Assembly: GCA_020091685.1 (NCBI GenBank)
Contig: CM034613.1
Span: forward strand, 1,826,345 to 1,890,344
Reading direction: 5' to 3'
Source: Lutjanus erythropterus
Lineage: Eukaryota; Chordata; Actinopteri; Lutjaniformes; Lutjanidae
Length of the DNA stretch: 64,000 nucleotides
The notes under the pieces are model-generated. The model saw only the letters and a list, made by a program, of their open reading frames with translations. It had not been told where the DNA came from and did not search any database. The position numbers were made by a program, and so were the translations under genes. Below, piece by piece: positions 12,596 through 36,731 of this stretch (positions within the stretch are counted from its first letter, which is position 1; each line of letters begins with the position of its first letter).

Positions 12596-12938
12596 TTACA
12601 TTTTGCAATTATCGTCTTCCGTCACTGCTGAGCCAGTAATATACTTCAGGTAGCCGTCCTCTGCATTCTCATCTTGAACTGCAGCAGCAGCAGCACCCAC
12701 AGGAGCAGGCAGGTAGACATTTTCCCATCTCCCCCCTGAGTCTGTCTGTGGATGGTGAGAGGCAGAGGCAGCAGCAGCAGCAGCAGCCACCTCCAGGCCC
12801 TGGTTGATGTAGTTGGCCTCCTGGCTGGCCTCCAGCACCGGAAGCTCTGACAGAAGGCCTTTCAGTGTCTCGCCCAGTTCCCTGAAGCCGGGCCTGCGGC
12901 TCGGCTCCTTCTCCCAGCAGCTCTGCATCACTTCATAG
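12596..12938 (-). CDS. Receptor exon 15: kinase C-lobe end and tail
   Basis: The acceptor CTGAACACAG completes the leucine of LYEVMQSCW, the TAM-type kinase C-terminus. Residues 818-830 read [13 protein letters not shown], matching human TYRO3's SVLSASQDPLYIN. Y828 lies in YINQ, a GRB2-type YxN site. Two alanine runs (seven and five residues) follow, then ENVYLPAP and GYLKY, and the protein stops at TAA after NCKM. There is no SAM domain and no PDZ-binding end. Confidence 0.95.
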
Positions 12939-15900
12939 CTGTGTTCAGGGTGAGATGGAGGGGGCAGGGTGAGGTATGTATAAATATATATACTGTGTAG
13001 ATATACAAGAATATTCCCTATAGTGATGGCTTCAAACAAAGCAATGTCTAAGTGTGAGCAATTGCTATAGGTTTTGGATATTTTCCAAAATATTTTTTGA
13101 GGTCTGAAAAAAACATCTAGTATTTCAAGAGAAACCAAGATTTGGAGAGGAGTCTATTTGCAGAGCATTAGTATAATAATTAGAACTAGAGATAAATTTT
13201 CTTCCAATAGCCCAACACCAATAACACCAATTAGTAACTAGTTAATTTTTAAGTATAAGCACAAAATTATGTGATATAAAAGAGGCATCTATTGTCCCCA
13301 TGTCTCCATTATGTCATTAGTCAGCACTAATGACATAATAAGCAGTTGTAATGCAGCTTTCGTTTGAGAGAGTTGTCCAGCAGTCCGTGGCCACTTGTCT
13401 GCACTGCCTTGCTTGACTTTTAGTTCCTCCTCCTTTGGTGCGTTTGAGATGAGCCGGGCCTGCGCAGAATTGATCATTGATCGCCGCACAATGCATCACC
13501 ACCTGCTCTGACATCATGCATACGTGCATGTGCACACGACTAAGGCGTGGACTAATTTTTTTATTATTTTTTTTTTTATTTTTTTTTTTTTTACACTCGC
13601 TTTCACTTGGCGCCCCTGGTAGTCTGGCAGACTTCCAGGTCAGTGAGCTGACATGATGAGCTCATCTGTTAATAAGCATATATTCTGTGGCTGATAAGAA
13701 TAATAAAGGTTATATGTATGACTCATCAAACCAACAGTTACAAAGTGCTTTACAAGGCAGATTAAACAACAGACAATCTATTTCAACTTCAATCAGTGAT
13801 CATGAATGCACTTAACTAGTTATGTACAAAATAAATGTAATTATAATCAATAACATTTACTGACAAAAGATATGTACCAACCCCAATTCACAGAAAGTTA
13901 GTCTGTGTAAAATGTAAATAAAAACATAATGCAGTGATCTGCAAATACTTTTCAACCAACTGAACACAGCATAAGGGCAAGATATCGACTGTTCAAGCTG
14001 ATAAACTTTGTTGTTTATTGTCGATATACACTCATTATGAATTTGATGTCAGCTACACATTCCAAAAAAGTTGGGACAGGAGCAAGTTTACCACTGTGAG
14101 ACATTATTTTTTCAGTCAGTGTTTGTGAACTGAAGTTTTGAAAGTGAAATTCTTTCTCATTCTTGCTTGATATGAGACTTCAGGTGGCCAACAGTGTGGG
14201 GTCTCTGTTGGGAGACAGGTCAATGAAGACACGCTGTTGGAACACGTGCATAATGTGTCTTACTGAAATAAGCAGGGACGTCTCTGAAACAGACATTGTC
14301 TGGATGGCAGCATATGTTGCTCCAAAACCTGTATGTACCTTTCAGCATTAATGAGTTTTCCAAAGTGTTCCTGAGCCCATGTAGTATCCTTTATACAATG
14401 ATGTTAGTTTTTAATGCAGTGCTGCCTGAGGGGTCAAAGGTCACAGACATTCACTGTTGGTTTTCAGTCTTGCTCCTTACGTGCAGAGATTTCTTTGGAC
14501 TCTCTAAATTTTTTAATGATATTATGGATTGTAGATGGTGAAATCTCTAAATTCATGCAGTTTTGTCAATCAGTCTGAATATTCATTAGCTTGTCTTTGC
14601 ACTGTATTTAATCGAATATAAGTCGAAAAGTATTTGCAAATCATTGCATTACATTTTTATTCACATTTCACACAGCACCCCTACTTTTTTGGAATTGGGG
14701 TTTGTAATTCAATTACAGTTACTAATCACCAGAACATGTTTGTTGTTTTGTAATCTGAGTTAACTGAACCTTTAAATTGTCCAGGTAAAATACTACATGA
14801 CCATTTCTAACAAATTAAAAGGACACTTATGACTTAAAGCCTTTCATTACACTGTTAACAGTTGACTGTATACTAGGGCTTACTGTATGTTATGTATGTT
14901 TTTAGGGATATGCACCTGATGCCCTCTATTATATTAAAATATTTCACTTACATGACACCAAATAAAACAACACAAATATAGATTTTAGGTAGCTTTACAA
15001 GACTCTCCCTGATTTTGTTGCTCTGCCCACTGAAACCCCCCACTGCTCTATTAATATTTCAAAATCTGTCTCATCAAATGTCCCTGAATGAGCAGAAGAA
15101 CTCACAGTTTGCGGTCGCAGTCCTCAGGTGGTTTGAGCCTGTGTCCAGACAGCAGCAGCTCCAGAAGCTCGTGGTTGTGAACTCCAGGATAGGGGGTCCG
15201 TCCCCGGGACACAATCTCCCACATGGTCACCCCGAACGACCACTGAGAGGACAGGGACAAAAAATATTATACACTTCTGAAATAGTGCCACAATAATCAG
15301 AAATCAGCTGTTTATGACTGAACTCACCACATCACTTTTAGTGGTGTAGACGGACTCAGACAGGCTCTCCATGGCCATCCACTTGATCGGCACACGGATA
15401 GCGACTTTCTGACGATAATAATTGCTGCTGTAGATTTTCTTGGACAGACCAAAGTCAGCCACACACACCCTGAGGTCATCACCCAGCCTGCAGATAACAA
15501 AAAGTTTTTAAAAAGTGAATAATGAGACCAGGTGAGGCGACATTTTCAGTCAGATTAAATAACAAAACCAGAGTTCTGTCTCCTCTGAGGCCTTCAGTCA
15601 GCTTTATTGAAATTTTCAGCAGCTTCCTTCCCAGTTACAAGCCATGTTTGAATACCAATAGCTGAGGACAGAGACACAGTCTTATAAGAACAAGGACTCC
15701 TTGATTTCAGGTTCCCTGTCTGTCTCAGTGTCTCCCTCTGATGGACTCACATGCAGTTGCGTGCTGCCAGGTCCCTGTGCAGGAAGCCCTGTGAGCTCAG
15801 ATAGTCCATCCCTGCTGCAATGTCCACCATGAAGCGCAGGAGACTCTGATGGGGAACAAACTGAAAGAGGGTAGAAAAGGGTGTAATAATTTAATTTTTT

Positions 15901-18900
15901 AACATGCAAATGTGGAGCTATAACCATGTTTGAGTTGTGTTTGTGCTGTGGGTGATGACATGAAGTAGAAAAAAAGCATCAAACTGTATTATTCAGAGGT
16001 GGCAAAAGTCCACACAGTCTGTATTCATGTATAAGTACAGATACTTGTGTAAAACAAGACTGGTAAAAGTAGAAGTACTGATTCAATTTCTTTACTGCAG
16101 TAAAGGTTAGTGAGTGGATGGATGGGTGAAAAGTAAAGAGTCAACAGTGACTTCTTTTCAAGATGTAAAGTATGTAACTTATATTTGTATATGTTACATA
16201 TTTATATAAACTATGCAACTTATATTATGTAAAATATTTAACGTACATAATACAAACTACATGTCTGTGTATATTCTCAGTCATCCCGGTCATGGCATTC
16301 GTAGAAAGGGTTGTCATAGGCAGCTGGACTTGGTAGAGTTCTTGAAGACATTTCGCTTCTCATCCAAGAGGCTTCTTCAGTTCAGAAGTGAAGAAGCCTC
16401 TTTTTCAGTCCCTTCCTATGAAGTCAAGTTGCCTACGACAACCCTTTCTACAAATACATAATATTACATTGCATTGCGTTGTGTTGTGTTGCGTTGTGGT
16501 ACAGTTTGTTGCGTTACACTGTGTTGCGTTATGTTGCATTGTGGTGCACTGCATTGCAGTAAATTGCGTTGCAATACATTGCAATGTGTTCCATTTTGTT
16601 GCATTGTGGTAGGTTTTGTTGTGATGGTTGCATTGCATTGTGATACCTTAAATTGTGATAACTAACTGTTGTGTTACATTATGTTGCATTACATTACAGT
16701 CCGCTACATTGTGTTACATTACATTGTGTTACTTTTTTGTGTTATGGTATGTTTTGCGATGTGTAGCATTGCATTTCCTTGTGTTGCAATAACTTGAGCT
16801 GCATTACAGTGTGTTACATTGCATTATGTTGTGTTCTGTGACATTGTGTTACGTTGTGTTACATTACATTATGTTACATTATGTTGCATTGTGTTGCACA
16901 GTGTCACGTTGTGTTGCGATGTGTTGCACTGCATTGCAATATCTTGCGTTGCGATACCTTGCATTGCATTGCATTAGGTTAAGTTACATTACATTAGTTG
17001 CTTCCCGTTCCAGTATGTACTTAATATATGTAGGTTACATTGCATACATGGACCTACATAAGTAACTTATTGTTACCCAAACATGAACTTATCCTAAACC
17101 TACCCAAGTAGTTTTTGTGCCTTTATTTTGAAAGTCTAAAGTGTATTTTGAAAGTCATTGTACATTTATTATTGCTACCTCGACCACGGAGCCCTGCATG
17201 TGCAAAACTGACATTAGTGGGTTACCTACAGCGTTAGTTTGAAACATATGACCACTGACCAAGCTGCTGTATTTGACTTGCTGTTAGTGAGAACATGTTG
17301 ATATTTAATGTGGTCCTCTATGGACCTTTAATATTGAAACAAAATTCCACAGCATCTGGCCAGTGGCTGAGCAGGTTTACAAGTTGTCTGAACATTTGTA
17401 TTTCCTTACCTGTTGCACTTTATTTTAGCAGTTGTACCTCAGTGGCTCTACATTGTTATAACAATGGGTAGGATGGCCAAAGCTATTAAGAATGATTCTC
17501 TATGCAGTTTATCATGAGAGAAGCTGCTCTCAGCTCCTCTATGCGTGTCAAAGTGTCCTTGTGTATATCTGTGTAAGCATGTGCTGACACTGCAATACGT
17601 CCCATTTATACATGTGCTGACCACATCTTACCATCGGAATGTCTCCATAGCGTGTAGCAATGAGGAAGCGTCGCAGGTCTCCATGTTTCATGTAGGGCAG
17701 GATGACCAGAGGGACAGGCAGAGGAGAGTCCTGCTCTCTCTGTAAAGTGACCCCTGCAGGACAAACACACACACAGCTTTCACAAGACTGCTGCTGCAGG
17801 AGAGGAGAGGAGGCTGAATTGAGTCTGTAGAGGTGGAAACAACGCCAGATCAAAAAAAAAGTTTCCTACACATTTCTTAAGGAAAATATTATTATAGTCA
17901 CACTATTGCATCCGAGTAGTGAGTTCGGTGGTGTATCTTACCAAGTAGTCTGACCACATTTTCATGATCAAAGCTCTGCATGATCTCTGCCTCTCTCAGA
18001 AACTCATGTAAGTCTTCCTGGCTGTGGATTCCAACTGGATGAGCAGAGCGTAGAGAAACGACAGAAATTAGAAGTAGCAGAGCAGAGTTCTGATAAAGGC
18101 TTTGAGTTTCAGTACACACCTCTCATGGTCTTCACCGCCACCTTCATGTCCACACCGTCGTTTGGGGTAAAGATCCCTTCATAGACTGAGCCAAACTCTC
18201 CTGCAGAACAACAAAGAAGGGCTGAGTGTTATCACCCAATTTACTGCCAGGTTTAATGTTTCTAAATCATGGATATCCGAATTTTTTTAAACAAAGTTCT
18301 TTGGTTATGTATATTTGGATGGATTGCCAAGATAATTTGTGTTCATTCGTGGTTCCCAGAGGATAAATCCTCTAGACTTTTAATTCTGAATTTTCCTCTA
18401 GTGCAGCGAGCGGGTCTGGAAGCCCAATATGGTTAGTCATAATTCTAAGATTTTTAAAAAGTCAAAATTATGAGATAAAAAGTAAAAGAAAAAATATGTG
18501 ATTAAAAAAATGATTTTTTATCGCATATTCATAACTATCTCATAATTTAGACTTTTTATCTCATAATTTAGATATTTTATCATAATTTATACTTTTTATT
18601 TCATTATTTAGACTTTCTTATCTCAAAATTTAGACTTTTTAATCTCATAAAATATGACTTCTTATCTCATAGTTACGACTTATTTCGACTCTTGTGATTT
18701 TGACATTTATCTCATAATTTTGACTTTTCATTTCATAATTATGACTTTCTCTCATAATTTCTATTTTTTCCCCTGATAATTAGGACTTTTTATCTTGTGA
18801 TGTCGACATTTATTTCATAATTATGATTTTTTTCTCAAAATTTTGACTTTTAAGCACATAATTTTGGCTTTTTATTTCAGGATTTTGATATTTATCTCAT

Positions 18901-21900
18901 GATTATGACTTTATCTCATAATTTCAACTTTTTATCTCATAATTTCAACTTTCTTATCCGATAATTTTCACTTTGACTTACCATGGGGATTTCTTTTTTC
19001 TTTTTTCTTGTTTCTTTTGGATGAATTGTGATAATTTTGGGGATCCTCCTTTCAGTTTCATTTAACGCCATCGTCTGGTCAAAACATCTACCTGTGATTT
19101 GTCCCGAGGACAAATGACAGTTCCATCAGCCTCAGCTGTCTGCATCTAGTGCTAATTAGCAAATGTTAGCATGCTAACATTCTTAACTAAGATGGTGAAC
19201 ATGGCAAACATTAACTAGCCAACCATCAGCATATTAACTTTGTCAGCATGTTAGCATGTTGATGTTAGTATTTAGCTCAAAGCACTGCTGTGCCTTAATA
19301 CAGATTCAAGAGAGCTATTAGCATGGTTATAGCTTATGAGTTTCTTAATGTGAGCATGTTAGCATGCTGACGTTAGCATTTATTCAAAGCATTAATGTGC
19401 ATAAATACAAACTCACAGAGCCACTAGCATGGCTGCAGCTGTAGTTTTGTTTCCATAATATTTAATTCAGGATAAACATCTACCAAGAAACATTTGAGCC
19501 AGACTGGGACCACTGACATATTAAGATGGACAACATGACAGTTGATGCCCCCTGGTGGCTGACTGCAGTGTATGTCAGTAGCCATGCTGCTGCATGTCCA
19601 AGTGTTCATTTTTCTCATGAGTTGATGCTGATGATGGTGTTAATAATAGACTGCAGAATCCTACAATATAAATGTAATTCCTGGGGACACTGGGTTACTT
19701 TATCCCGTGCAGTGGGAAGGTTTCAGGTTAAGACATTATTATTGTTGATGAGGAATCATGACCTGACCTTTGCCAAGCTCCTTTCCCAAGGTGAGCTTGT
19801 TTCTCTCCACCAGGACATCCTTAAGACTGGCCAGCAGCCTGCCGCTGATCCCCTCCAACAGCTGGGCCACACCTTCCACCACTGAAACAAAGGGGAAATC
19901 ATGTGAGCATCCTGTACTGTTTAAGTCAGCTTCTGGTTTGTAAGACAAATCAGTCAGAATGTGTGAGTATACAAATGGTCTGTACAAGTTTAGGATATTC
20001 ACATACTACTGTACATGCTGTGTGCAAAAACATCTAGAGATTCATGATAGGCTGAATATTTTTTGAGCTCTTGTTTTAAGGTGATTTCACTACATCATAA
20101 CCTCATTTTCATATTTTCACATGATGCTTTTAGTTTAAATCACAAATGATAGGAATGGTACAGAGGCTTGATGCTGTCATGCCACAGTAAGAAAAGCAGA
20201 TCATTATCATATTATAACATGGTAACTTATTGTTATCACACAAAAACATTCACATTTTAACAAGATAAATAGAAGAAAAGTTTCTTGGTATAATGTGCCA
20301 AATCTGTATGTAAAAATATCTCGTTATAAGAATAAATTCTTCACATGGCGTGATACTGATTCGTTTTTCTATTTCTGGCAGAGCAATGGTGACCTTTTCT
20401 GGGTGGAGGGCAAGGGCATAGAATTGGGTAGGGATGGTTGGGATATGTCCAAACCAATATCCTGAATTGTCTCTAGAAATAAAACCAATCTCAATCCCAA
20501 TTCCAGTCACACAAATCTATTATTTTATCATTTAGACCTGCGTAATCTTAGTCAGCGCTCCTCTGGCAGCAGCACAGCATCATGCACCTCAGGCAGGAGA
20601 GTGACAATTTTTACTATGGTTATGGGGACAATGTGTGTCTCTGTCACTCTAAAACTTTGCGTGACAGGCCACAGAAGAACAGGCAGACAACACATCATCG
20701 TAGCTCCAGCTGGGATGTGTTTATTGTCCCCACTATCCGTGGTATTTTTGGTGGTACTGCCCTTACTTTGATGTTGAAATTTCCAGAATGTCCTGACAGT
20801 GCCAGCACAACCACAGAAGAATATACCAAAATATTGTCGAGGAGTGTGACACTTACTGTTGGCCTGCTGTGGTGCAGCCTCCACCTGCTGTGGACGTCGG
20901 TAAGAAACTCCAGCATCCATTGGCAGAAGCTCTAGTTCCTGGTCAGACCTGTAGAGAAATTATGATTTTTTAAATATCATTCTAAGTAATTTGTCTTTAC
21001 AGTTATTTGTGAAATTGAACATTTCCACCCATTGCTTTTATGATGTGGCACTAAAGGAGCTCCTCATATTATCCTCATATCTCCTCATAAGCTCCAGTTT
21101 GTATTTTTCACATGTGCACACATCTCTCAGTGACATCATTCAGAAACTATATAATGCACATTACTAATGTTACCTATATTATAAAAAGTTGTAATTTTAT
21201 TGACACACAGTATGTGATGTATTTTGGATTTTGATTATTGACCTATTATTGTAACAATGGAAGAGGATTAAGTCCACATGTGAAAAATTTGAATTTAAAT
21301 TGAGTTTAAAATTATAATTCCAAGAATAAAGTCAATACTCAGAGCAGGGCTGGCTAAAGCCATGCACCATATAAGCAGTTGCCAAGGGCACTAACTTCAG
21401 ATGAGTGCTGATCAGCCTCGAAGGAAAAAAAAATTTGCTGGTGGGTGCCCTTCCTCCCTCTGTCATCCTTTCCTCATTTTCAGCCTTGTGATTGACAGTG
21501 CTGTGATTGGCTGTTGTAAAATCACTATGTGTTGTGACTGGCTGGAGTAAAACCCTCCTGTGCTGTGATTGGGTGATATAAAATCCTTGTGTGATGTGAT
21601 TGGCTGTTGTAAAATCCTCCTGTGCTCTGAATGGCTGTTGCAAAATCCCCCTATGTTGTGATTGGCTGTTGTAAGACCCTCCTGTGCTGTGATTGGCTGT
21701 GGAAAAATACCCTGTGTTGTGATTGGTTGTTGTAAAAACCACCTGTGCTGTGATTGGCTGTTGAAAAATATCTTTTTTGTTGTGACTGGCTGTTGTAAAA
21801 CTCTCCTGTTTTTTGATTGGCTGTTGAAAAAAACACCTGTTCTGTGATTAGCTTTTGTAAAATCCCCCTGTGTTGTGAGTGGCTATTGTTAATCCCCCGT

Positions 21901-24900
21901 GTTGTTATTGGCTGTTGTAAAACCCTCCTATTTTGTGATTGGCTATTCTAAACTCCCCTGTGCTGCGATTGGCTGTTGTAAAACCGTCCTTGCAAAACTC
22001 CTCTGTTTTTTGATGATAGTGTGGTGGTGTTGGGGAGCCACCAAAACATAATCCTGTCTCTGGCATCACAACGCCTAGAGCCGACTGACTTTAAACTTAG
22101 AACTCAAATACATTTTCCACTTCACCTGAGTTTAGTGTAGTTGCGGCGCAGGGCACACACAACAATCGGGACAACAGCCATGAGCAGCAGGCAGCCGAAT
22201 AAAAGACCAACTGTCAGCCACATGGACAATCGACTCTGTTTCTGAGGAGCTGGAGTTATGACTTCAGGCTCTGAGATGTTAGACGCCGGCATCACAGTGA
22301 TCACCACAGGAGGAACTTTCCCTGCAAGAAAACACAAGCATTTTATGTGCCTCAGAAATTAGACCTCTTGACATCCTGTCCTGCTAACTGTAGCTGCTGT
22401 TAGCTAGTTAGCTCAGTTAGATGTGCAGCTCAGGAGTACTAGTATAGTGTTAGTGTTTTAGTGTGAAAGGAGGTGGTTTTAAGGCCTGGGGAGATTTTTT
22501 CTGTTGGTGTTGTAATACTCATTTCTGCCACAAGAGGCTGAAGAACACCATTACCCCATGATCTATTTGTTTGTTCTATGTAGAGCATTGAGTAGTGGTA
22601 CACTTTAGACTCTTGTGGCTAAAATGAGCATCACAAGAAACACTGAAACAAAAATAATCCTGACAAGAAAAAAAAACCTTGCCTTTCATGGCTTTCATCG
22701 CCTGAACTGAACCCTCAGAAATCCCCCAGGTGAGATGTATTTCTCCCACTTTTTCTGGACTATCTAATGTGTGTGTCACTTCACATACATCTATGAATAG
22801 TAACGGTGGCAGTGGATGAAGGTGGCACCCCCAGCTGGGTGGACACATTGTTCCAGGCTTGCACTGTCAGTCTGTAGTCATGCTGTGGATTCAGTCCTGT
22901 GAGGCTGACAGTTGTGCTGGTCACCCCCTCTGAGTCTGGCAGGAAAACCACACCATCACCACACGGCCCCCACTGACTCCCAGTCTCTGCTGCCGTCTCA
23001 CACTTGAGGCGATACATCACTTCCTGCCTGCCTCCCTGGTCATGAGGAGGATCCCACATCATTATCAGCACTGAGTCATTATGATGATGGGCTGTGAGAT
23101 TCACAGGGGCTGAGGGAGGCTCTGTGGGGACAAGACAGGAAGGAAAAATATGTCAAGACTTAAAAATCCTCTAAATGTATGTTATTAGTGTCAAATTCAT
23201 CTACAGTATAAGTGTATGTATGGAGTCATAGTAGTGCCATAAAGACTACATTTTAATGTGTCATTAGGATAAAAAATAGATAGAGGTATATGTATGGAGT
23301 CATAGTAGTGCCATAAAAAGAATAACATTTAATATGTGTCATCAGGATCAAATTCATACACTGTATAGGTGTATATATTATAGTATTATATATATATATA
23401 TATATACACATATATAAGGTGGAAAAGTCAGATTTTTCTCTTAACATTTGTCAGATACCTATATTTATTATTTTTATATATAATTAATTAATTTTTATGC
23501 TTTATTTTTCTTTGTATTTTCCCTATTCTCTTTGTTGGAATAACATGAGTCCTGCCAGGATTCATGTAGGCAGAATAAGTCCCGCCAAAGCGAGGTGATT
23601 GACAGCTTGGACCTTCAAGAAATAGCAAAAGCAATAGAGAAAAGAATTAAGAAAAATAAAGAGCTAAAAATTAATATATGACACTATATAAAAAATGAAT
23701 AAATACATTCTAAAAATAAATAATATGCAAAAAACAAACAAATATGTCCATTATTTAAACAGAAATATACACTGAAATAAATGAACAAATACATGTGATA
23801 ATAAATGACAATTCTTTTAGTTTTTATGTCTTAAAATTTCCACATTTATTTCTCTCATTTATTTTTGTTTTAAATGCCAACATTTTCTATTTACATTGTA
23901 ATTATTTTATTAATTTCCACATAGTTTATCTACTTATGTATTCTTTTATCTATTCCTGTTTTGTTTTGTGTATTTTAATATTCTTTTTCAGTTTTCTTCT
24001 TTTTCATGACACTCTTATGACTCCATATGTACAACTTGAAGGCAGACAACCAGTGTCTTCAACTAGTTTCTATTTAAAATGCATCATATGCATGATAGCA
24101 GAAATGGATGGAGTCATAAATCTAAAACCAATGTATATAAGAGTCTTTGTTGAACATGTATGTGATTATAGCATCTTTCATCTTAGCCTGATAATGTAAC
24201 TTTTTGTCTAAAGGAAAATGAGAAAAAAAATAACACAAGTGTTGTACATTTGTGTCTGCTACAGTTAGCACCATTGGGGGGAGCCAAAGTTGACCATTTT
24301 AAAATTCACCTGTAGGAGCTTTAATCTAACACCATATATTAGATGTTAAGAAGATAACACCTGTTGATTTCCAATAAATCCCACTCAGTGTTTCTTACTG
24401 GAGCAGCCGAGGTCGTCAGGTTCAGTTGGGAGGCGGATGAAACCCTGCAGACAGTCGCACCTCTCTGATCCCTCCCCATACGTCCTGGTATTCAGTGGGC
24501 AAGGCCGGCATCCTCCACTGTCATTGGCTGGTTTGTAGTAGTACATCCTGCATGCTGGGGAAACAGAGAGCGTGACTGTAAAAACTGAGTGTAAAAATTT
24601 AATTTCTTTGTAGCATTTTCTTCCACTATTTGTCCGAGTGCGCGTGAGCTTCAGATGCACACATCCACGCTGCCGTGTATCAGCCTACACCTGTGACTTT
24701 TTGACAAAAACATGGTATTGTGTGACAAAACTAACTAGAAATCTACATTGAAATAGCCCATAGCTCTTCCTGAACACTAACAACCAGAGGTGGCAAAAGT
24801 ACACACATTCTTCACTCAAGTAGAAGTACAGATACTTGGGGGAAAAAAGACGCTGCTTAAAGTACAAGTACTGAACAACTTCCGTCTCTCAAGTAACAGT

Positions 24901-27900
24901 GAAACTGTACAGGCTCTGAACTGTACTCAAAGTATGGAAGTAAAAAGTACTTATCTGACCGGCACCATTTCTCTGCAGTCAAGTCTCCCTCTCTGTCTGT
25001 TTTGTCTTGTTATGTCATTTTCATCTTTTTATATAGTTTTTGTTCTGTTCCATCTTTTTCAGGGTTTTTTTTTTATGTTATTGTCTTGTGTTATGTCACT
25101 TTTTATTGTGTTGTCTTTGTGTTGTTGTCTTACCCTGGTTTTGTGCTGTCAGATCTTTTATGTCGTTTTTGTTTTGTTACGTCTTCTTCATTTTGTTACG
25201 TTGTTTTTGTCTTGTTGTGTCTTTTACATTGTATTGTCCTGTTATGTCTTATCTTCTTTTTGTCCTGTTAGATCTTTTATGTTGTTTTTGTCTTGTTACA
25301 ACTTTCATTTTATTACATGTTTTTTGTATTGTGACATCTTTTTCATATTGTTATGTTGTTTTTGGTTTTTTACGTCTTTTTTAATTTTGTTACATTGTTT
25401 TTGTCTTGTTATGTCTTTTTAATTTTGTTATATTGTTTCTCTCTTGTTACATCTTTTTCATTTTGTTACATTGTTTTTTTTCTTGTTATGTCTTTAAAGT
25501 TGGTTTTGTCTTCTGACATCCCTTTTCTCTTGTTATGTAGTTTTGGTCTCATTACTTCATTTTTGTCTCGTCATATGTTTTTTGTTACGTCTTTTACATT
25601 GTTTTTGTCTCATTACATTTTACCTTGCTTTTGTCTTGTTACATCTTTTACGTTGCTTTAATCTTTTTATGTCAAATGCAGTAAAACTAAAGTAACAAAC
25701 CTGTTTTGAAAATATAAGAAGTAGAAAGTGCAGATATTTGTGTTAAAATTGAGGGATGAAAAGTAAAAAGTTAAAAATAAATTGTTAAGTAAAGTACAGA
25801 TCCCTGAAAAATCTATTAAGAAGGTTACCAAAGTTTTTCTGCCATGCCCCCCTTTTTGGAAGCCAACAAAAGTTCGAGCGACCCCCCCTCCCCCAAAATT
25901 TTTGTCATTAACAATAATTGAAGACTAGAAGATTAAAAAGAAATTAAAGTCATCAGGATAGAATCAGAAAACTGTTTGGTTATTTCCCTTACATAAATCA
26001 AATTTATTCAACTTTGTTTCACTCTTTATTTCTCCCCTGGTCATTCGTGCCCCGCCTGCAGTGGCCCTGTGTACCCTGACAGAGGCTCGCCCCCCTCTAA
26101 AGAGATTTGAATAACCTCCATGTTGAGTTCAACTTCACATTCAGCCCTAAAGTACCATCAAAGTCAGAGTGTTGTCATGTCCATAAATTCTTTGGTGTTA
26201 TAAAGCGGAGTGAACAATGTGGCTGCTTGGCAACACAAACCAGGCTTGGTTTTGAAATACAGAAAACATGAAGCAGTGAATGATATCTGTTGAGCAATGC
26301 TCAGGGAATATGTCAAATCCAAAATTGAAAATAACAGAAAGATGTAAATGAGTTGGAAGAGGATGATGGGAAAGAGGAAGTGAAAGTCACTGGTTGGTAA
26401 ACAGGAAAAGACACGCAATCTGTAGGTCCAAGAATTCAGGATCATTTTAGTGAAATGTTTGCATGAGCACATGAAACAAAACTATGGTTGGTGCAGCACC
26501 TCCTCCCTCCACAAGCTGCTAATTTTAGCACCCAGCAAAACTAAAATGTTACTGTGGTGTCATCTGTGGCAGCTCACATTGAAACCAGACTGTAAATGTT
26601 CCAGGACCACTCATTCTTTCTGTCATGTTGTTAATTCTCCATGTTGTTGAACATATAATGTAACATCATGAGTGTGTGATCTACTGCTGACTCTGACCCT
26701 GATTAAGACCTGTGTTAGTTGTAACACGTCGGTCATTTTAAATACACATTTCCATGTAAAATAAAAGTTTTTAACTTTGTGCAAACCCCGCAGTGACCCC
26801 AGCGGTGGTTCAAAACTTTTTTGGCATAACTAACATTACTAACTAACATTACATTATCTTACAGTTTCTTTTTCCTGTGCTCATTTTTTTTCTTTTATTT
26901 GAAAGCTAAATAGTTTTACTAATCACAGCACAAATATAATACAAAGCTTCCATACTTTATTTTTTAATTCCTCAAAAGGAAATTGTACCTCCACTGTACC
27001 TCTCTTCTCAGTCTGTGAGGCTCCTGAATTCATCCTCCTTTGAGTTTGATTTGACTTGTGAGTAGTGCTTATGTAAAATAATATGTTATTCTAAATTGGA
27101 GTGAAGTAAACATTCTAATTTGGATCAACTCAAAGCCAAAGCAAAATTCTGGTATAGATTTTTCTGCCAGGACTTAGACCGTTTTGTATGTTAAGAGTAT
27201 TAGGGCCAGGCAAAAGGGGGAAAAAATTAGACAAAGCGCACACTGAGAGGTATAATCACGTAGCTGGATAGTGTACAGGAACATTTGTGCTGAGTATGAA
27301 TAAGAAATCCCCAGGTCCAGATGGGACACACCGCTGAAAGTAGAAAAGACAAACTTACAAGCGAGTAATACAGTAATAAGTAAAGCCATTCTGCCCATAT
27401 TTACAAGTTTGCATCAGTTGTTGGGGGGTCAGGACACACAAAAGATACTGGAGGGAGATAGCAGTGGCAGGATAGCAGACATACAGGACAGCTAAAAGTA
27501 CTGGGAAAGAGGTGAGGATGCAAGGATGTCAGCTACAGCCAAGTGTCTGTAGAGGTCAAGTCAGCTGCTTGGAAGCTAGCTCAATAGTAGGAATGAGACT
27601 CCATTATCTTCCAGTCATCAGATACCCAGCTGGAAGAGTAAGCTGAGAAAAACTCCCCACATTGCCCTTGGGAGTGATTAGAAGAAAGAGGAAATACCCT
27701 GGAAGACCAAGCCCTTGATGTGTTATTAGATAGAGAAAGTGGCTGAGAAGTCCTGCCAATGCCAAGAAAAGGCCGGCCTAAAGGACAGCACAGAGACAGC
27801 CATCATCACCACAGCCAAATACGTCCAGAGGGTAAAACAGTCAGCTCAATGGATACATGGAACGTCAAGCTGTTCACCAGGAACGAAAGAGGCATTTCTC

Positions 27901-30900
27901 ACTGATCCACCTCACCAGGATCTACAGTGAGGACATTGTCCAAATGTCCAGAATAAAGTCGAAATCTCAACTTTATTCTCAAAATGTCAAATTTAAAGAA
28001 ATCTTTAATGTGGTTCTAATAAACTGGTTATGACAAAAACATATGAACAATATGAAATAACAGAAAAATCTCCATACCTTGACAGGTGTCACCCATGACT
28101 TGATGCCCGGATTCACAGGTACATCCCCCTGTCAGTGGACCCCACACTCCATCCACATCACACTCTCTAACAGGTGGAGAAACCTCCACAGCTCCCCTCA
28201 CACAGGAACCTGTCAGGGGCCCCGACCCGGCCCCCGTCCCCTTAAACGATGCCAGGTGAGCCACGACGTCAGGGCACTTCCTGTAGTACAGTCTGATGGA
28301 CGATACCAGCGCACATGTTCCTGAGTAGGAGAAGGCGAGCTGGAAGCCTCTGCGGTTGATGGAGCCCAGGCTCAGAGCCAGGCTGCGCTTCAGGTGGCTG
28401 GGCATTTCCTGCGGATTGACTGTGCGAGGAAACGGCTCGGTCTGGAGGTCCAGGCCATTCCCACCATTTTGGAATCTTCTCATTGGTGTGTCTGTGTCGA
28501 AAAGGTCAACTTGTAGTGGGCTGAGCTGACCAGAGTCCTCCTCCTCCTGGGCTAATGAAATATCCATCAGTAGATGGTGGGCGTCTTTGCGCTCCATCCA
28601 GTGGCTTAGAACAGTTCTCTTGGTGCGATGTCCACACGCCTGGAGCACAGGCACCTGACCCTGTGCGCCCACTGTCAGACGAACTTCACCCCACTGGCAT
28701 GATGGGAAAGAGAACATCAGTGAAAAGTTGCAGGGTAAAGACTCAACAAACTCTGTCCAAGACTGAACTCATGGAAGATACCAGTGGAACATTTAAAACT
28801 GTCAAGTCATAAGGTCGACATAACATTACACAACTGAACTTCAGCCACTCGTGTTATTTAAACTGAGACTGATCACTGATTTAATGTTAGTTGTGACATA
28901 ACATTGTTAAATAAAGAAATGTATCGCTGCCACGCCAGGAAAAGAAAAAAAGGGTCAGTATTGCGTTATAACATGAAAACGTTGTTATAACAAGATGTTT
29001 CATGTTAAAACAAAATATTTTCACATTATTACAATATACAAACCTATCACATTATAACAAGAAACATATTCATGTATAACAGTATATTTTTTATCTTGTC
29101 ATAACCTGAATTGTTTGTCATCATAACATTATAGTGTTGTATAACAATATAGGGGTAACACTTTATATCAAGGTGCTTCTAATAAGCATTAGTTAATAGG
29201 TAATAAGGCCCTTATAACATGCTTATTAGCAGTATCATGTGTTCATGTTTAATATGAGATTATAATTTAACAGTTAACAAAGCATTTTGGGGGCACTGGA
29301 TCCAAAGTGTGAACAATGCTCATTAGGGTTAATTAATGTTCATACAGTTAGTCAGATCAAACAGTTGTCATTATTCAGCAACTAATGAAAATGTATTTTT
29401 ACTGTAAAATGAAATGCAAACTTGACTTTAACTCATCACTTAGCAATCCAACTTACTTGTGAGGTGGGCTCAGAAGTCCATCCCAGTCTGGTCTGTTTGT
29501 TAGAATTAAAGATCTCAACTAAACACAGAAGAGGAGAGAAAATCAAGAGTCACTGTGTTGAATCATACTGACAGAAACACAACAGCAGCACAGAGGAATC
29601 ATACACCTTTATATCAGGAGTCAGACATCCATTTACTTTACATCACACTCTGTCAGTCAGTATGAGGCACATCTTGATTCAGCACACATATTTGTCTTTT
29701 TCCTAAGTGTTTTCAGTTACCATCTCTTCATCAGGGTAGTGTCTGAGGCCACTTCCACTTTCAGGAAATGAAACTGTTTTTATAGAGTTCAGCACATTAC
29801 ATTTGTTCTCACTAAATGGAAATCTTGAGAGAATATTTCTGTCAAAAGAGAACTGAAATAAATCATGGCAAATCAGTTTTGCAACTTGATTTTGACGGAC
29901 TTGAAGTTTGACTTTTTTTTTGTCGTTTACAGTTTTTAACAAGTCTGACAGGAAGGTCATGACAGTCTGTCTGTTAGTGAGTCTCTTGGTCTGTGGGTCC
30001 ACCACTTTGGTCCACACTGAAATATCTCAACACTTGATCTCAACTGAATGGACCGCTGTCACATTTTGTACCGGCAGTCATGGTCTCCAGAGGATGAATC
30101 CCTCTGATTCGATCCTCTGACTTTTCATCGTCCAGAATCATCAGGTCAACATTTGAAGCTGGCCAGTACTTTGATTTATGTGAAAGTGCAGAGGTTGAAG
30201 CTAACACAGCTAACATTAGCCATGCTACAACTGCTGCTGACTTGTCGGTGAAGCGCAAACGAGAGAAGACCCGAAAATATTCAGTGCAGTATGTGGTGCG
30301 GGGCGTCCCTGCTCTGTCTGTCCATCAGCTAAGGCCTAGATTTTCAAACTACACTGGTGGTACTCAAGCTCCCTCTAGTGGTGAACTGAGGAATCTCCTA
30401 AAATTAAAAAAATATAAAAAAAAATATATCAGCAATGTTGTTGTTTCAATATCAGCCTGCTGTATAGTCACATGTATACACATAACGTGAACATACTTCA
30501 TCTATGATTAGTTACAAGCTGAACTGGAAGTGTGTCTGTAGCTGACAACAGTCAACAATAAATAATCTTCTTATCAGGAAAAAAAAACCCTGCCTCGTGT
30601 GTGAACTCTCCGTAGCGTACCTACTGTATTTTAACATCAGACATAATGGTGGCACTGGAGAACGTCATAAATTCTGAGGTGGTAGGTGGTGTAAAAAGTT
30701 TGAGCAAACACTGAGCTGAGGGAGCCATGATCTGAAAAACACGGAAGACTGCTTATCTAAACATCGTGTTAACTGAGGTTGAAACACAAAGGGTAGATTA
30801 GGTCTGGGCACAGGAAGTCTTATATCATTTCCTTTATAAACAATTACTTTCCCCAAAAATTTTTTGGAAACCAGAGTCATGATCATGTTGGTTCCACAGC

Positions 30901-33900: not shown

Positions 33901-36731
33901 AAGTTAGGTACCATTATGTATGTGATATAAGATGAGTACATTATGTAAGTTAAGTATAGTATGTAAGTTAAATGTCAATTTTGGTCTCACACAGACAGAC
34001 TGTGTCCTCCCTCCTCCTTGTTTGGCCTTTTATACTTCATCATGTGACTTCTCTCTCTGCCCTTTTCATAATTTTCCCTTAAATATGGATTGTAATGACC
34101 TGATTTCACGACGACCTGTTTGTCTTTCTGCTGACGGCGTCGTGGATCAGTTTTATGATGCATAATAAAGACTGTACTCAAGCCACTCAACAGTATATAG
34201 GTCAGATTAGCTCCACCTCAACCAGCTACAACATTAATGCAGCTCATGCAGTGATACATCAGTCAAAACTTTCAACAAAGCTTTTACTTAAGGTCTTATT
34301 TATTTTGTAATTTTACTCGTATTATTACTGACTTACATGCTACTACTCTGTCAGTGCATGTTGCAAAAATAAAATAACACTCTTAATATAATATTCAAAA
34401 CAATATATATTAAAAAAAAAAACTGTAGAAATGTGGACATCAAACCAACATTATTAAAATTAGCTAAAGCTTAACTAAAATTGGTTGGGATAAACATTTT
34501 AGTTAACTGAAAGAAAAATAATTAGTTTTGTATATTAGAAAAAACAATAATGAAACAAACAAAAAGTAGTCTAGAGCATTCAAATAAAAAGAAAAGTAAA
34601 ATTATAATAAGATTAAAAATAAAAATACGCAAACATCATCAGACCATCAAAGAACACAAACAGCTGAGAGAGAAACAAAGCAGACAAAACATTGGCTATT
34701 GTGGCCCTTGAAGGACTCCGTACTTTTACATATTTAAACCTTCTTTTTTATTGTTTCCACAATCTCAAATTTTTGTTTCACAAATATTTTACTAAAACTA
34801 ATATTCATTCATTTCTGTAACCGCTTAGTCCATAAGGGTCGCGGGCTGCTGGAGTCTATCCCAGCTGACATTGGGCGAGAGGCGGGGTTCACCCTGGACA
34901 AGTCGCCAGTTCATCACAGGACTGACACATAGAGACAGACAACCACTCACACTCACATTCACACCTAAACTAAAACTAATAAAAAAAATAAAATATATCC
35001 GTAAGCAGAAGTTGACACATCATTGGGAAGTGGGACTTGGTCACATGTGGATTTGACCCTGTGACCTTCAGATCCTCAGAGAAGGTGACTCACAGACTGA
35101 ACCACTGGAGAGACGTGGCTTTAACACACTTTCGTAAAACTTAATACAATGACATCGGCTGTGCAAAACTGGAACTTTTCTGTTTCAACACAAAACGCTT
35201 GCAAAAATCAAAATTGTGGTGATCAAATACTAAAGAAATCACACATCATTCTGCTGGTTTCAGGTGTTTTGTTAAATATTTTGGTGACATTTCATCAAAC
35301 ACTGAGTGAAGAAGAAAATGTTGTGCAGACAGTAGAAATTACAGCAAGATGACCATGTCCATGTTTGGTTATTGAGTTTTCGTATTTTGAAAAATACAAA
35401 GTGATGGACTTTTGAATTGGTTGCAGTGAGACAAACTTTTGTCTCAATTCAGCAGATGTGTTGAAGAAATTTCAGGTCTGTGGGACATACAGATGATCGT
35501 AAAATGTCTATAAATTTAAATTTCTTGTAATAAGTCACGTCCAGTTATTACCAAAATTCATGCATTGACTGAGTCATGACCCAAGATCATTTGAAACAAC
35601 TTCCGTACAAATTCTTACAGCCAATTATGAGATATGAACGTCTTGGCGCCCCCTATATGTTAGCTTAGTGAAGACTCCTGAGCACGTCTTAATTTTCACG
35701 TTGATATCTTATTGCATTCATGAGTTATTACAGATTTAAGAAAATAAGCTGTCAATAAAAAATTGATTGGCTGATAAAAACCAACCAAATAGACAAATTT
35801 TTTATTATTATTATTTTTTTGATAACTCTAGATCAGTAAAGTCTGTAGATGGTCCCGACCCATTTCTAGGACGATTGACCCAACGGTCTAAAATAAGTGC
35901 GTGAAAACAGAATTCTGATAAAACTGCGAAAAAGTCATTAAGCAGAAGACTAATTACAAAAAGATGCAGATGAATTGAGCGATTAAAATGGTGAAAGAAT
36001 TCTGAGTCTACACCAAGCTGTTTTCAAGATAGCTGCAAAAACGTAACATTGTTTGGTACAGCGCCACCTTGTGGTTAATGACCGCCATCTTCGTTGCCTC
36101 AGTACTGGGTGGAATTTGCAAACCAGCTGATAATTTTGGTGAGTTTTGTCTCACAGTTTTTGGTGCACAAATACTTTGAGCAGAGAAAAAACTATCAAGA
36201 AAGAATAATCAGAATAAAAACAGCAGTGGTCCACAGCAAGCGGAGCTGCTTGGACCTCTAATAATGAAACCATGAGTGTTTTAAAATGAATTACTATTTA
36301 TATCATTTACCTCAAAGTAATTCAGAATTCAGTTTTTTATTAAGATAATTTTGTCTGAGGGGATTTTTATTCTTTTGCTCATGTAGGATACAGTAACTGT
36401 CTATATTATATCATGTACGCAGAGAAACAACAGTTAGAAGATAAACAAAACATTATAAAGTAATGTATATAGTATTTTTATCACTTACAGTGAGTTTAAA
36501 CAGCAGTGACTCTTCCTATCTTTTCCTGAAATACTTCCTCTCACAGTTCACTGGAATTTTCCCCACAGTTTAACACCATCACATCAGCATATTAAAGTCG
36601 GATATATGAATGATGTCCCGACATGAACATAAACCACCTGTTCACTCACCCTCCTCTCCTGTATGTTGTGTGTCACAGGCAGCCTCCCACATCCACATCC
36701 ACAGCAGGAGTAAAGTAGGCCACAGTGTCAT
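12596..36731 (-). CDS. Hybrid receptor tyrosine kinase: Eph-type ectodomain, TAM-type kinase (15 exons, 898 aa)
   Basis: Exons run from 36731 down to 12596 with lengths 82, 62, 616, 156, 333, 196, 92, 114, 81, 93, 122, 110, 160, 137 and 343 bases. They sum to 2697 bases, all junctions are GT-AG and all phases match. Predicted order: signal peptide 1-19; Eph-like ligand-binding domain about 28-205; cysteine-rich/EGF-like part about 206-305; one FN3 about 307-416; stalk; membrane helix about 450-474; TAM-like kinase about 541-817; tail with YINQ at 828. Catalytic residues are K574, E592, D679 and D697. Relative to Eph receptors it lacks the second FN3, the juxtamembrane tyrosine pair and SAM; relative to TAM receptors it lacks the Ig pair. 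It should sit in the plasma membrane and signal by tyrosine phosphorylation, with ligand unknown. I do not know a named gene with this layout; databases may label it Eph-like or TYRO3-like. Confidence 0.9.
12753..12788 (+). repeat. GCA-type triplet run coding polyalanine
   Basis: The plus strand reads GCAGAGGCAGCAGCAGCAGC and so on inside exon 15, giving seven alanines on the minus strand. A shorter run near 12680-12695 codes five alanines. Triplet runs are length-variable, so the tail probably differs in alanine number between individuals. Confidence 0.8.
12939..13874. other. Receptor intron 14, right part
   Basis: Intron sequence with a poly-T stretch (about 13557-13592) and no recognisable element or exon. 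Confidence 0.6.
13875..14706. mobile_element. DNA transposon remnant with CAACCCCAATTC ends
   Basis: The left end TACCAACCCCAATTC mirrors the right end GAATTGGGGTTTGTA. Inside are CATTCCAAAAAAGTTGGGAC and GGTCTCTGTTGGGAGACAGG, motifs of a very common teleost non-autonomous DNA transposon. It lies in receptor intron 14 and has no intact protein frame. I am not certain of its superfamily. Confidence 0.75.
15106..15242 (-). CDS. Receptor exon 14: kinase C-lobe
   Basis: Encodes [20 protein letters not shown] and on to [13 protein letters not shown]. This matches TAM kinases ([25 protein letters not shown]) much better than Eph kinases (WSYGIVMWEV). Acceptor CTGTCCTCTCAG, donor GTGAGT, 137 bases, ending in phase 2. 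Confidence 0.96.
15328..15487 (-). CDS. Receptor exon 13: DFG and activation loop
   Basis: Encodes [20 protein letters not shown], then SSNYYRQ and [11 protein letters not shown]697 is the DFG aspartate. The tyrosines at 705, 709 and 710 match the TAM activation-loop triplet. KWMAMES corresponds to the TAM signature KW(I/L)A(I/L)ES, which replaces the usual APE motif. 160 bases, phase 2 to 0. Confidence 0.97.
15751..15860 (-). CDS. Receptor exon 12: catalytic loop
   Basis: Encodes [20 protein letters not shown], then [17 protein letters not shown]. The catalytic aspartate is D679 in [17 protein letters not shown] and [11 protein letters not shown] are close to TAM kinases. 110 bases, clean splice sites. 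Confidence 0.97.
16001..16140. repeat. AGGTGGCAAAAGT-type dispersed repeat
   Basis: CAGAGGTGGCAAAAGTCCAC followed by ATAAGTACAGATACTTGTG matches the start of the repeat at 24786, where GAGGTGGCAAAAGTACACAC is followed by GAAGTACAGATACTTGG. This is a truncated copy in receptor intron 11. Confidence 0.6.
16301..16451. mobile_element. Foldback MITE with long inverted repeats
   Basis: GTAGAAAGGGTTGTCATAGG at the left is mirrored by a right end whose reverse complement is GTAGAAAGGGTTGTCGTAGG, with similarity reaching about 31 bases. The centre contains CATTTCGCTTCTCATCCAAG and TCTTCAGTTCAGAAGTGAAG. Total length is 151 bases. It would form a hairpin in the receptor pre-mRNA. Confidence 0.85.
16461..17005. 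repeat. Degenerate 5-base satellite (TTGYR-type)
   Basis: About 540 bases of loosely repeated five-mers such as TTGCA, TTGCG, TTGTG and TTACA. Apparent open frames on both strands here are by-products of the five-base period. It lies in receptor intron 11, next to the foldback MITE. Confidence 0.88.
17632..17753 (-). CDS. Receptor exon 11: hinge region
   Basis: Encodes [20 protein letters not shown], then [33 protein letters not shown] is the TAM hinge (human TYRO3 MVILPFMKHGDL). Acceptor TTTGTCCTGCAG, donor GTAAGA, 122 bases. Confidence 0.96.
17942..18034 (-). CDS. Receptor exon 10: alpha-C helix
   Basis: Encodes [20 protein letters not shown], then [13 protein letters not shown]592 is the alpha-C glutamate expected to pair with K574. 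EFLREA and [10 protein letters not shown] follow the TAM pattern. 93 bases. Confidence 0.96.
18120..18200 (-). CDS. Receptor exon 9: glycine loop and catalytic lysine
   Basis: Completes the nucleotide loop as [11 protein letters not shown] across the exon 8 junction and supplies the catalytic lysine K574 in MKVAVKTMR. 81 bases, donor GTGTGT, acceptor TTGTTCTGCAG. Confidence 0.96.
18240..19520. repeat. Dispersed fish repeat with AT-rich satellite core
   Basis: The outer part has GGTTCCCAGAGGATAAATCC on one side and TTAGCATGCTAACATTC and GTTAGCATGTTGATGTTAGT on the other, motifs of a widespread percomorph repeat. The inner 18430-18970 is a degenerate satellite of about 22 bases built on TTTTTATCTCATAATTTAGA. 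It fills most of receptor intron 8. Confidence 0.7.
19768..19881 (-). CDS. Receptor exon 8: juxtamembrane to kinase start
   Basis: Encodes [20 protein letters not shown], then [19 protein letters not shown]. The [14 protein letters not shown] segment aligns with the TAM juxtamembrane (TYRO3 ISDELKEKLEDVLI), so TAM similarity begins before the kinase itself. 114 bases. Confidence 0.93.
19882..20856. other. Receptor intron 7
   Basis: Contains loose ATTATAACA and GTTATAAG repeats near 20200-20330, like those at 28950-29140. Open frames opposite and beside exon 7 (about 20582-20935) show no family resemblance. Nothing else is recognised. Confidence 0.5.
20857..20948 (-). CDS. Receptor exon 7: cytoplasmic juxtamembrane
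   Basis: Encodes [20 protein letters not shown], then [11 protein letters not shown]. It has neither the YIDPFTYEDP tyrosine pair of Eph receptors nor an obvious TAM match, and only one tyrosine. 92 bases, acceptor TTTCTCTACAG, donor GTAAGT. The frame carries through from the membrane exon to the TAM-like exon 8. Confidence 0.9.
21483..22005. repeat. Minisatellite with CCAAT-type ATTGGCT in each unit
   Basis: About 14 units of roughly 35-40 bases. Each is close to CTGTGATTGGCTGTTGTAAA followed by ATCCTCCTGTG. Most carry ATTGGCT, the reverse of the CCAAT box. Open frames here on both strands (NHSTGG- and SQSQHR-like) are periodic artefacts. It lies in receptor intron 6. Confidence 0.9.
22126..22321 (-). 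CDS. Receptor exon 6: stalk and transmembrane helix
   Basis: A short stalk ([20 protein letters not shown]) with one NIS glycosylation site leads to the membrane helix [20 protein letters not shown], stopped by the basic RRNYTKLR. In Eph genes a second FN3 would precede the helix; here exon 5 joins the stalk directly. 196 bases, phase 1 to 2. Confidence 0.95.
22322..22788. other. Receptor intron 5, proposed fusion joint
   Basis: A 467-base phase-1 intron between the last Eph-like exon and the membrane exon. No remnant of a second FN3 exon was found in any minus-strand frame. Confidence 0.6.
22789..23121 (-). CDS. Receptor exon 5: the only FN3 domain
   Basis: Begins [20 protein letters not shown], matching the Eph start RPPSAPLNLI, and continues through [34 protein letters not shown] and ATVTIHR. 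GGRQ followed by xxYxxxC is the first Eph FN3 signature. Several N-glycosylation sites are present (NLT, NDS, NVS). Its 333 bases, phase 1 to 1, match the usual Eph exon 5 of about 336. Confidence 0.96.
23185..23410. repeat. Two-copy tandem repeat of about 100 bases, then TA run
   Basis: GTATGGAGTCATAGTAGTGC occurs at about 23217 and 23292, each followed by CCATAAA and a related tail. A TA run follows at about 23388-23406. It lies in receptor intron 4. Confidence 0.75.
23411..24398. other. Receptor intron 4, left part
   Basis: Very AT-rich, with a long low-complexity plus-strand open frame (23795-24199) that resembles no family and has T-rich codon content. No element ends are visible. Confidence 0.5.
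24399..24554 (-). CDS. Receptor exon 4: Eph EGF-like cysteine-rich segment
   Basis: Encodes [20 protein letters not shown], then [19 protein letters not shown] and so on to GCS. It aligns with Eph exon 4 (ACKIGYYKA, CPPHSYS, CxCxxGFFR, CT). The length of exactly 156 bases, phase 1 to 1, is the standard Eph exon 4 length. Confidence 0.97.
24786..25830. mobile_element. AGGTGGCAAAAGT-type repeat carrying a T-rich minisatellite
   Basis: The left side is GAGGTGGCAAAAGTACACAC and then GTAGAAGTACAGATACTTGG. The right side has GTAGAAAGTGCAGATATTTG and TTAAGTAAAGTACAGATCCC. Between them (25000-25670) is a degenerate minisatellite of about 37 bases built on TTTTGTCTTGTTACATCTTT. The 210-codon open frame across it is a by-product. 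It lies in receptor intron 3. Confidence 0.65.
25831..28077. other. Receptor intron 3, no gene recognised
   Basis: A repeat-like piece with GCCATGCCCCCCTTTTTG (about 25840) and GTGACCCCAGCGGTGGTTC (about 26795) may be two ends of a dispersed element. The GC-richer block 27420-27950 reads unlike its surroundings and could be an old element, but no protein family is recognisable. Confidence 0.4.
28078..28693 (-). CDS. Receptor exon 3: Eph-like ligand-binding domain
   Basis: Encodes residues 49-253. [13 protein letters not shown] aligns with Eph xx[16 protein letters not shown] with GAHRIYVEM, and [20 protein letters not shown] then YYRKCP with FYLAFQDxGACxALxSVRVYYKKCP. C68 and C175 match the main Eph disulfide. 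The second Eph pair (RDC and SCK) is missing. A cysteine-rich tail (C212, C226, C239, C241, C252) follows. 616 bases, phase 0 to 1, as in Eph exon 3. Confidence 0.95.
28900..29155. repeat. Degenerate TTATAACA repeats
   Basis: Loosely repeated ATTATAACAAGAAAC and GTTGTTATAACAAGATG motifs in receptor intron 2, similar to 20200-20330 in intron 7. Confidence 0.55.
29150..29400. mobile_element. GGTAACACTTTAT-type MITE fragment
   Basis: GGGGTAACACTTTATATCAA followed by CTTCTAATAAGCATTAGTTA resembles the start of a fish MITE. The right end and a target duplication were not found. Confidence 0.4.
29457..29518 (-). CDS. Receptor exon 2: start of Eph-like domain
   Basis: Encodes [20 protein letters not shown] plus Q, matching the first strand of Eph receptors (EVxLxDT...ELGW). 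62 bases, phase 1 to 0; small second exons of this kind are typical of Eph genes. Acceptor CTTCTGTGTTTAG, donor GTAAGT. Confidence 0.93.
29900..30260. repeat. Dispersed fish repeat with GGTCTCCAGAGGATGAATCC
   Basis: GGTCCACACTGAAATATCTC, GTCTCCAGAGGATGAATCCC and a GCTAACATTAGCC tail follow the order of a widespread percomorph repeat also present near 18340. A short open frame here that looks signal-peptide-like is part of the repeat. Confidence 0.6.
31154..32811. mobile_element. hAT-like non-autonomous element with perfect 8-bp duplication
   Basis: The left end CAGGCACGTGCAGAG and the right end CTCTGCACGGCCCTG are inverted copies with few mismatches. Just inside lie GAGCACCTGCCCC (left) and GAGCACCTGCCCCTCC (right). 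The 8-mer TCTATTTG flanks both sides (31146-31153 and 32812-32819). CAG...CTG ends plus an 8-bp duplication fit hAT. It is 1658 bases with no transposase frame, in receptor intron 1. Confidence 0.85.
33207..33650. mobile_element. ACTTGAGTC-type fish repeat, minus copy, with insert
   Basis: GTAGTCAACCCCAGTACTTG and GTCTTTCTCCTGCCGTCACC are reverse complements of parts of the element at 42361-43090. The copy is interrupted at about 33361-33440 by GTGGCGCCCTAGGCGAGATG, another dispersed fish motif. Confidence 0.65.
33651..34800. other. Receptor intron 1, no gene recognised
   Basis: AT-rich intron sequence with scattered GTAAGTTAAGTA-like motifs near 33900-33970 and no coding signal. Confidence 0.5.
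34805..35100. repeat. Dispersed vertebrate-type repeat (CTATCCCAGCTGACATTGGG)
   Basis: GAGTCTATCCCAGCTGACAT, GGGCGAGAGGCGGGGTTCAC and CAAGTCGCCAGTTCATCACA are in the order of a very common teleost interspersed repeat. It ends in a degraded GAACCACTGGAG tail. The exact family is uncertain to me. Confidence 0.65.
35100..36643. other. Receptor intron 1, 5' part
   Basis: Non-coding, with a probable diverged repeat between about 35640 and 36110 (GGCGCCCCCTATATG on one side, CAGCGCCACCTTGTGG on the other). No exon is seen. Confidence 0.45.
36650..36731 (-). CDS. Receptor exon 1: signal peptide
   Basis: ATG at 36731 begins [20 protein letters not shown], a strong secretory signal with an LLLLW core, followed by TQHTGEE. 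The donor GGTGAGT leaves one base (G) that exon 2 completes as valine. No in-frame ATG lies between this one and the TATA-like box. Confidence 0.93.

Follow-up and report, generated by a model that had tools for sequence, protein, structure and literature searches.

Vertebrate receptor kinases are classified by their ectodomains. Eph receptors carry a ligand-binding domain, a cysteine-rich domain and two FN3 domains outside the cell and a kinase and SAM domain inside it; the TAM receptors (TYRO3, AXL and MERTK) carry two Ig and two FN3 domains, and Gas6 and protein S are bound by the Ig domains. Hybrid kinases, in which the catalytic domain comes from one subfamily and the accessory domains from another, have been described (PMC4177888, PMC2939887); the available portions of these papers describe no pairing of an Eph ectodomain with a TAM kinase, neither main text names AXL or TYRO3, and a supplement (PMC4177888) holds trees of hybrid cases, Eph and Met among them. 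The fugu kinome paper, in its available part, names two unusual domain combinations, neither of them Eph/TAM (PMC3359783), and according to the accessible text of a study of Eph evolution, the Eph ligand-binding and Eph transmembrane domains seem Eph-specific in vertebrates (PMC6993872). Here we analyze a stretch of 64,000 nucleotides from Lutjanus erythropterus (GCA_020091685.1, contig CM034613.1, positions 1,826,345 to 1,890,344 of the forward strand), called the window below, and a gene in it whose product is Eph-type in its ectodomain and TAM-type in its juxtamembrane region, kinase and tail. We conclude, with a probability of about 0.9, that the gene is intact and encodes a conserved single-pass receptor tyrosine kinase of this make-up in ray-finned fish.

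This receptor, like the Ephs compared (EphA4, EphA2, EphA7, EphA10, EphB2 and EphB6), has a ligand-binding domain, a cysteine-rich domain and a first FN3 domain in the same order, with the FN3 motifs PSAP and GGR. Unlike the Ephs, it has one FN3 domain instead of two, a non-Eph kinase, and no SAM domain, Eph juxtamembrane tyrosine motif, latch arginine or loop cysteine pair. With the TAM receptors it shares a juxtamembrane helix, the kinase, a YY activation loop and a YxN tail past the kinase; it differs from them in lacking Ig domains, in its single Eph-type FN3 domain and in a kinase that forms a separate lineage. Our conclusion draws directly on the structure of the gene, its domain content, the grouping of the kinase with TAM, the Eph type of the ectodomain, an occurrence from gar to spiny-rayed fish, and the presence of both halves on short contigs.

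The gene occupies positions 36746 to 12596 of the window on the minus strand. Its 15 exons form a single uninterrupted frame of 2712 nucleotides with the sole stop at the end, which gives 903 codons counted from the ATG at 36746 and 898 from the ATG at 36731. The 15 exons and 898-codon frame of the original prediction, made from the letters alone, agree with the splice sites, phases and frame, and all motifs that it quoted are present. All 14 introns have an AG acceptor and a GT donor and compatible phases. A tblastn comparison of the window with a related fish protein (P0001) matched every exon but the one for the signal peptide, 14 of 15 in order, with identities of 64-95%; the unmatched exon is for this reason the least certain. 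The exons, all on the minus strand, are as follows.

36650..36746, minus strand: exon 1, start codon (36746 or 36731) and signal peptide (hydrophobic stretch in the spliced model)
29457..29518, minus strand: exon 2, first strand of the Eph-type ligand-binding domain (P0001 tblastn, 66.7% identity, E 4e-4)
28078..28693, minus strand: exon 3, remaining ligand-binding domain and start of the cysteine-rich domain (Pfam, PDB match; 70% identity to P0001)
24399..24554, minus strand: exon 4, cysteine-rich domain (ACRMYYYKP), Ephrin_rec_like (Pfam, P0001 tblastn)
22789..23121, minus strand: exon 5, sole FN3 domain (PPSAPVNL) (Pfam, P0001 tblastn)
22126..22321, minus strand: exon 6, stalk and transmembrane helix, entered in phase 1, probable join of Eph-type and TAM-type parts (P0001 tblastn; Kyte-Doolittle peak 2.92, residues 461-479)
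20857..20948, minus strand: exon 7, juxtamembrane (P0001 tblastn)
19768..19881, minus strand: exon 8, TAM-like juxtamembrane helix and kinase start (P0001 tblastn; profile matches MERTK, not EphA7)
18120..18200, minus strand: exon 9, kinase, glycine loop and VAVK (P0001 tblastn)
17942..18034, minus strand: exon 10, kinase (P0001 tblastn)
17632..17753, minus strand: exon 11, kinase (P0001 tblastn)
15751..15860, minus strand: exon 12, kinase (P0001 tblastn)
15328..15487, minus strand: exon 13, kinase, DFG and activation loop (P0001 tblastn)
15106..15242, minus strand: exon 14, kinase (P0001 tblastn)
12596..12938, minus strand: exon 15, kinase end, tail tyrosine motifs YINQ, NVYLP and DGYLK, stop codon (P0001 tblastn)

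The tail encoded by exon 15 is present in most rows of a 30-row family alignment. We infer that the join between the two parts lies in phase-1 introns directly after the first FN3 exon. Two intron stretches (about 16440-17000 and 25010-25700) are repeat-like and read as monotonous cysteine- or phenylalanine/leucine-rich frames.

The same layout, for which the original prediction had proposed a search in other fish, is widespread. Searched against 5.8 billion proteins, the spliced protein gave 141 matches, and among the 120 listed, P0001-P0114 belong to one family. Hake, two catfish, conger and alligator gar came in through two more searches, made with a salmonid query that had been lengthened. 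This brings the family to at least 119 protein clusters, whose sources range over gar, conger, catfish, salmonids and spiny-rayed fish; the family is thus at least as old as the gar/teleost split. In a lengthened-query search four rows, the first three and P0136, are multi-kinase or repeat-scoring proteins from outside the family (32-36% identity), and the best named receptor outside the family is MERTK. No zebrafish, shark or tetrapod member is among the matches listed, which says nothing about these groups, since the lengthened-query searches skipped proteins below 912 residues and the first search missed catfish. Database names for members conflict: TYRO3, Mer, UFO and ephrin type-A receptors 1, 2, 3, 4-B, 5 and 7 all occur, and the conger member is named ephrin type-B receptor 3. 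The model of a Conger conger protein (P0135) holds the cysteine-rich and FN3 part in three consecutive copies, either an exon duplication or an assembly artefact.

A Pfam scan of the spliced protein, the kind of check that the original prediction had called for, matched Ephrin_lbd (in part), fn3 and the kinase. It also found Ephrin_CRD (1.4e-8) and, below the Pfam cut-off (21.6 vs 23.1 bits), Ephrin_rec_like (1.9e-4). There is one fn3 match (2.1e-9), followed in the next exon by the stalk and transmembrane segment, and the scan found no Ig domain. Among PDB sequences the ectodomain is closest to EphA4 (188 bits, residues 29-419), then EphA2, EphB2 and EphB6, and Eph chains rank first among the fold matches. 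Identity to EphA4, EphA7, EphA10 and EphB2 is 27-29%. The ectodomain tree separates 14 family proteins from six Ephs with 100/100 support; the Ephs were three of six EphA10 rows, EphA7, EphA4 and EphB2, without EphA2 and EphB6, one family row (Aplochiton) is without most of the ligand-binding domain, and with no invertebrate Eph included the root is not set. The claim of an Eph-like outside stands, with the correction that there is one FN3 domain against the two of Ephs.

The ephrin-binding site itself appears to be lost. Arg103 of EphA2 and EphB2 acts as a latch, forming a salt bridge to a conserved acidic ephrin residue (PMC10647059, in its available part). By residue spacing, we take this latch to be the R of the RDC..CKET loop, which occurs in seven of seven Ephs and in none of the 119 family members, some of them fragments. 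The latch region is readable in 99 of the 119, of which 60 have AQEEE; the residue aligned with the latch is Glu in 90, Gln in five, and Asp, His, Gly and Asn in one each, with no Arg. The adjacent Eph loop NNWLRT (NNWLQT in EphA10) is absent from the 13 family rows that extend there. Binding of classical ephrins, as judged from the alignment, is unlikely: with the latch arginine and loop cysteines gone, a classical ephrin seated in the usual channel is an improbable ligand. Of the ephrin-like recognition fold foreseen in the original prediction, an ephrin-receptor-like fold is supported and ephrin recognition is not. The Eph-type fold of the ligand-binding domain, and the invariance of two of its cysteines (C74 and C182 by P0001 numbering) across the 30 rows of the family alignment, would also suit a true ephrin receptor in which only the kinase had changed, binding ephrins and signalling through a TAM kinase. 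Set against the missing loop, the prevailing Glu at the latch and the low identity to Ephs, we consider such a receptor unlikely.

The inner half is of TAM type. The Pfam tyrosine kinase match is 6.5e-89; NCBIfam gave generic kinase matches only, all under their cut-offs. Against PDB sequences the kinase scores about equally with MERTK (380 bits), TYRO3 (379) and AXL (378), and MET comes next at 243 if a single entry labelled EGFR is set aside (9p9u, 323 bits over two stretches). There is no Eph kinase among the best 60 PDB matches, and identity to seven MERTKs is 55-58%. No SAM domain was found in the Pfam scan of the spliced protein, and the seven Eph proteins listed all carry SAM models. 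Kinase motifs are conserved in the 119 members (HRDLAARN in 115, DFG-type in 114, VAVK in 116, the glycine loop in 112, the YxN tail in 112), and the TYRO3 structure 3qup has LYIN at the position equivalent to the YxN tail. Ephs bear the juxtamembrane motif YxDPxTYEDP. It is visible in the EphA7 row of our stalk-to-kinase comparison and absent from the window protein, which has only Y483 and Y503 in this region. The stalk-to-kinase profile of the family matches MERTK at 97% and Eph at 0.6% (a single Eph row), and MERTK against Eph gives 33%; the profiles took in 104 of 119 family, 86 of 108 MERTK-range and one of seven Eph rows.

In the kinase tree, built with 14 of the 119 family proteins, TAM and the family group with 97/94 support. 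This became 96/95 once MET was added and three rows, Merluccius P0121 and two EphA10 rows (HRD and DFG missing), were removed, leaving 13 family proteins. In these two trees support is 90/96 and 99/99 for the family itself and 95/88 and 95/87 for MERTK. A kinase inside the Eph family, the outcome on which the original prediction would have fallen, was not obtained: placing the family with EphA7 cost 197 log units and was rejected (p 4.65e-17). Placements beside AXL, TYRO3 or MERTK alone were not rejected (p 0.127, 0.102 and 0.379), so the trees leave the order within TAM unfixed. The three TAMs without the family stand on one branch side with 79/69 support, and the TAM trio against the family plus outgroups with 57/56 (MET-containing tree). 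The kinase, as its sequence places it, groups with TAM as a separate lineage, beside or among the three TAMs.

A rival reading is an adjacent Eph gene and TAM gene merged by gene-prediction error or read-through, and some database models do merge neighbours: a Rab gene in four fish (P0110, P0111, P0113 and P0123), and in catfish P0122 and gar P0124 a gene of EHBP1 type. A tblastn search (E up to 0.01) with two Ephs, two MERTKs and one RON gave no match outside the receptor gene, and hence no Eph kinase, SAM, extra FN3 or TAM Ig stretch there, on which ground we rejected the two-gene model. One frame runs across 15 exons, the spliced protein has one strong hydrophobic helix (Kyte-Doolittle), and the same join recurs in most of the 119 proteins. 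Seven of the first 114 (P0001, P0052, P0053, P0073, P0080, P0081 and P0086) come only from the source 'lgn', on contigs of 2841-3910 nucleotides with 887-903 codons, and these contain both halves, against the possibility raised earlier that exon 5 is never joined to exons 6-8. A merger of two genes is very improbable, and the single gene first proposed, with its Eph-type ectodomain and TAM-type kinase, is upheld.

Several points weigh against this single Eph/TAM receptor and its loss of ephrin binding. The Ephrin_lbd match (8.7e-10) is confined to the C-terminal fifth of its profile (34 of 176 positions), and the AlphaFold model is weak overall (predicted local distance difference test score 60, predicted template modelling score 0.32), with poor modelling of the kinase and of the first part of the cysteine-rich domain. 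Placing the family with RON costs only 5.5 log units and is unrejected (p 0.072, small outgroup), as is a tree with the family and all three Ephs on one branch side (p 0.071, few outgroups). VIA-align gives Z of 14-15 alike for Eph, TAM, MET, BTK and FAK kinases and does not separate these families. The lgn contigs are probably RNA, judged by their length, which leaves no room for the introns of a gene of 24 kb. The loss of ephrin binding is read from an alignment at 27-29% identity, and a shifted loop could still bind.

How the receptor works can be proposed at roughly even odds. A cell-surface ligand would bind the jelly-roll domain and cluster the receptor; the kinase would then phosphorylate the activation loop (Y710, Y714 and Y715) and tail tyrosines, of which Y833, in the YxN setting of YINQ, may recruit GRB2-type adaptors. 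Because the Eph juxtamembrane motif and SAM are missing, the output would be TAM-style, not Eph-style. The lost ephrin site could also point to a ligand-independent or decoy receptor, or a partner of other Eph or TAM receptors with no ligand of its own, and the ectodomain does diverge faster than the kinase (56-65% vs 77-91% identity between five members). The gap is similar but narrower in five fish MERTKs, three of them from species common to both sets (63-85% for the ectodomain and 89-95% for the kinase). Fast divergence is therefore little evidence by itself, and the conserved kinase motifs and YxN tail argue for regulated signalling; we find a decoy or partner role quite improbable.

The genes beside the receptor suggest where the kinase half came from. 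Two Rab1-like exons lie downstream on the same strand (window 154-471, minus strand). The gene merged in the catfish and gar models has a bMERB domain (both) and CH and NT-C2 domains (gar), which we take to be the layout of EHBP1/EHBP1L1; the gar EHBP1-type stretch (P0124, residues 1-1930) has no match in the window, and this neighbour is seen only in the gar and catfish models. Human MERTK, TYRO3 and AXL are on chromosomes 2, 15 and 19. Human EHBP1L1 lies at 11:65.34 Mb (PMC8459317), and a paralogon to which the MERTK and LTBP families belong is represented on human chromosomes 11 and 19, or LG28 and LG2 in gar, LG28 being the named place of LTBP3 (PMC6298421), as given in the available parts of these sources. 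The neighbours and the published paralogon make a fourth TAM copy at the chromosome-11 place a natural guess for the kinase half. It is only a guess because EHBP1 and RAB1A sit elsewhere, at places of their own, and the neighbouring Rab1 scores nearly equally as RAB1A or RAB1B (356 v 352 bits).

Tentatively, and at less than even odds, these strands may be joined: the kinase half would be the fourth TAM gene so far missing from the set left by the genome duplications of early vertebrates, a gene at the counterpart of human 11q13, whose Ig/FN3 ectodomain was swapped for an Eph ectodomain via phase-1 introns before the gar/teleost split, and which was kept in ray-finned fish, lost or never fixed elsewhere, and given a non-ephrin ligand. 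If this is true, the receptor is a class of its own.

Two side observations concern the surroundings of the gene. The Rab1-like exons have a frame broken by small insertions and deletions relative to Rab1, from a decayed copy or local sequence errors, and the adjoining receptor frame is unbroken. Upstream of the receptor, a 7.2-kb segment is repeated at 96% identity (51174-58274 and 56107-63182), with further copies of 0.7-3 kb between 45 and 64 kb.

We found no description of this receptor in the open-access papers searched, those on kinomes, hybrid kinases and Eph evolution among them; subscription journals fall mostly outside that search, so priority is open. To this extent the layout is, as first supposed, without a described receptor, but it is not peculiar to the window, recurring in the family under conflicting names. 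Its Eph/TAM make-up explains how one gene is named both TYRO3 and ephrin receptor in databases, and fish TAM or Eph gene counts made by name may be off. For ray-finned fish, the family contradicts the Eph-specificity of the ligand-binding domain. As a natural ectodomain swap retained from gar to spiny-rayed fish, it is a test case for a receptor surviving a change of sensor.
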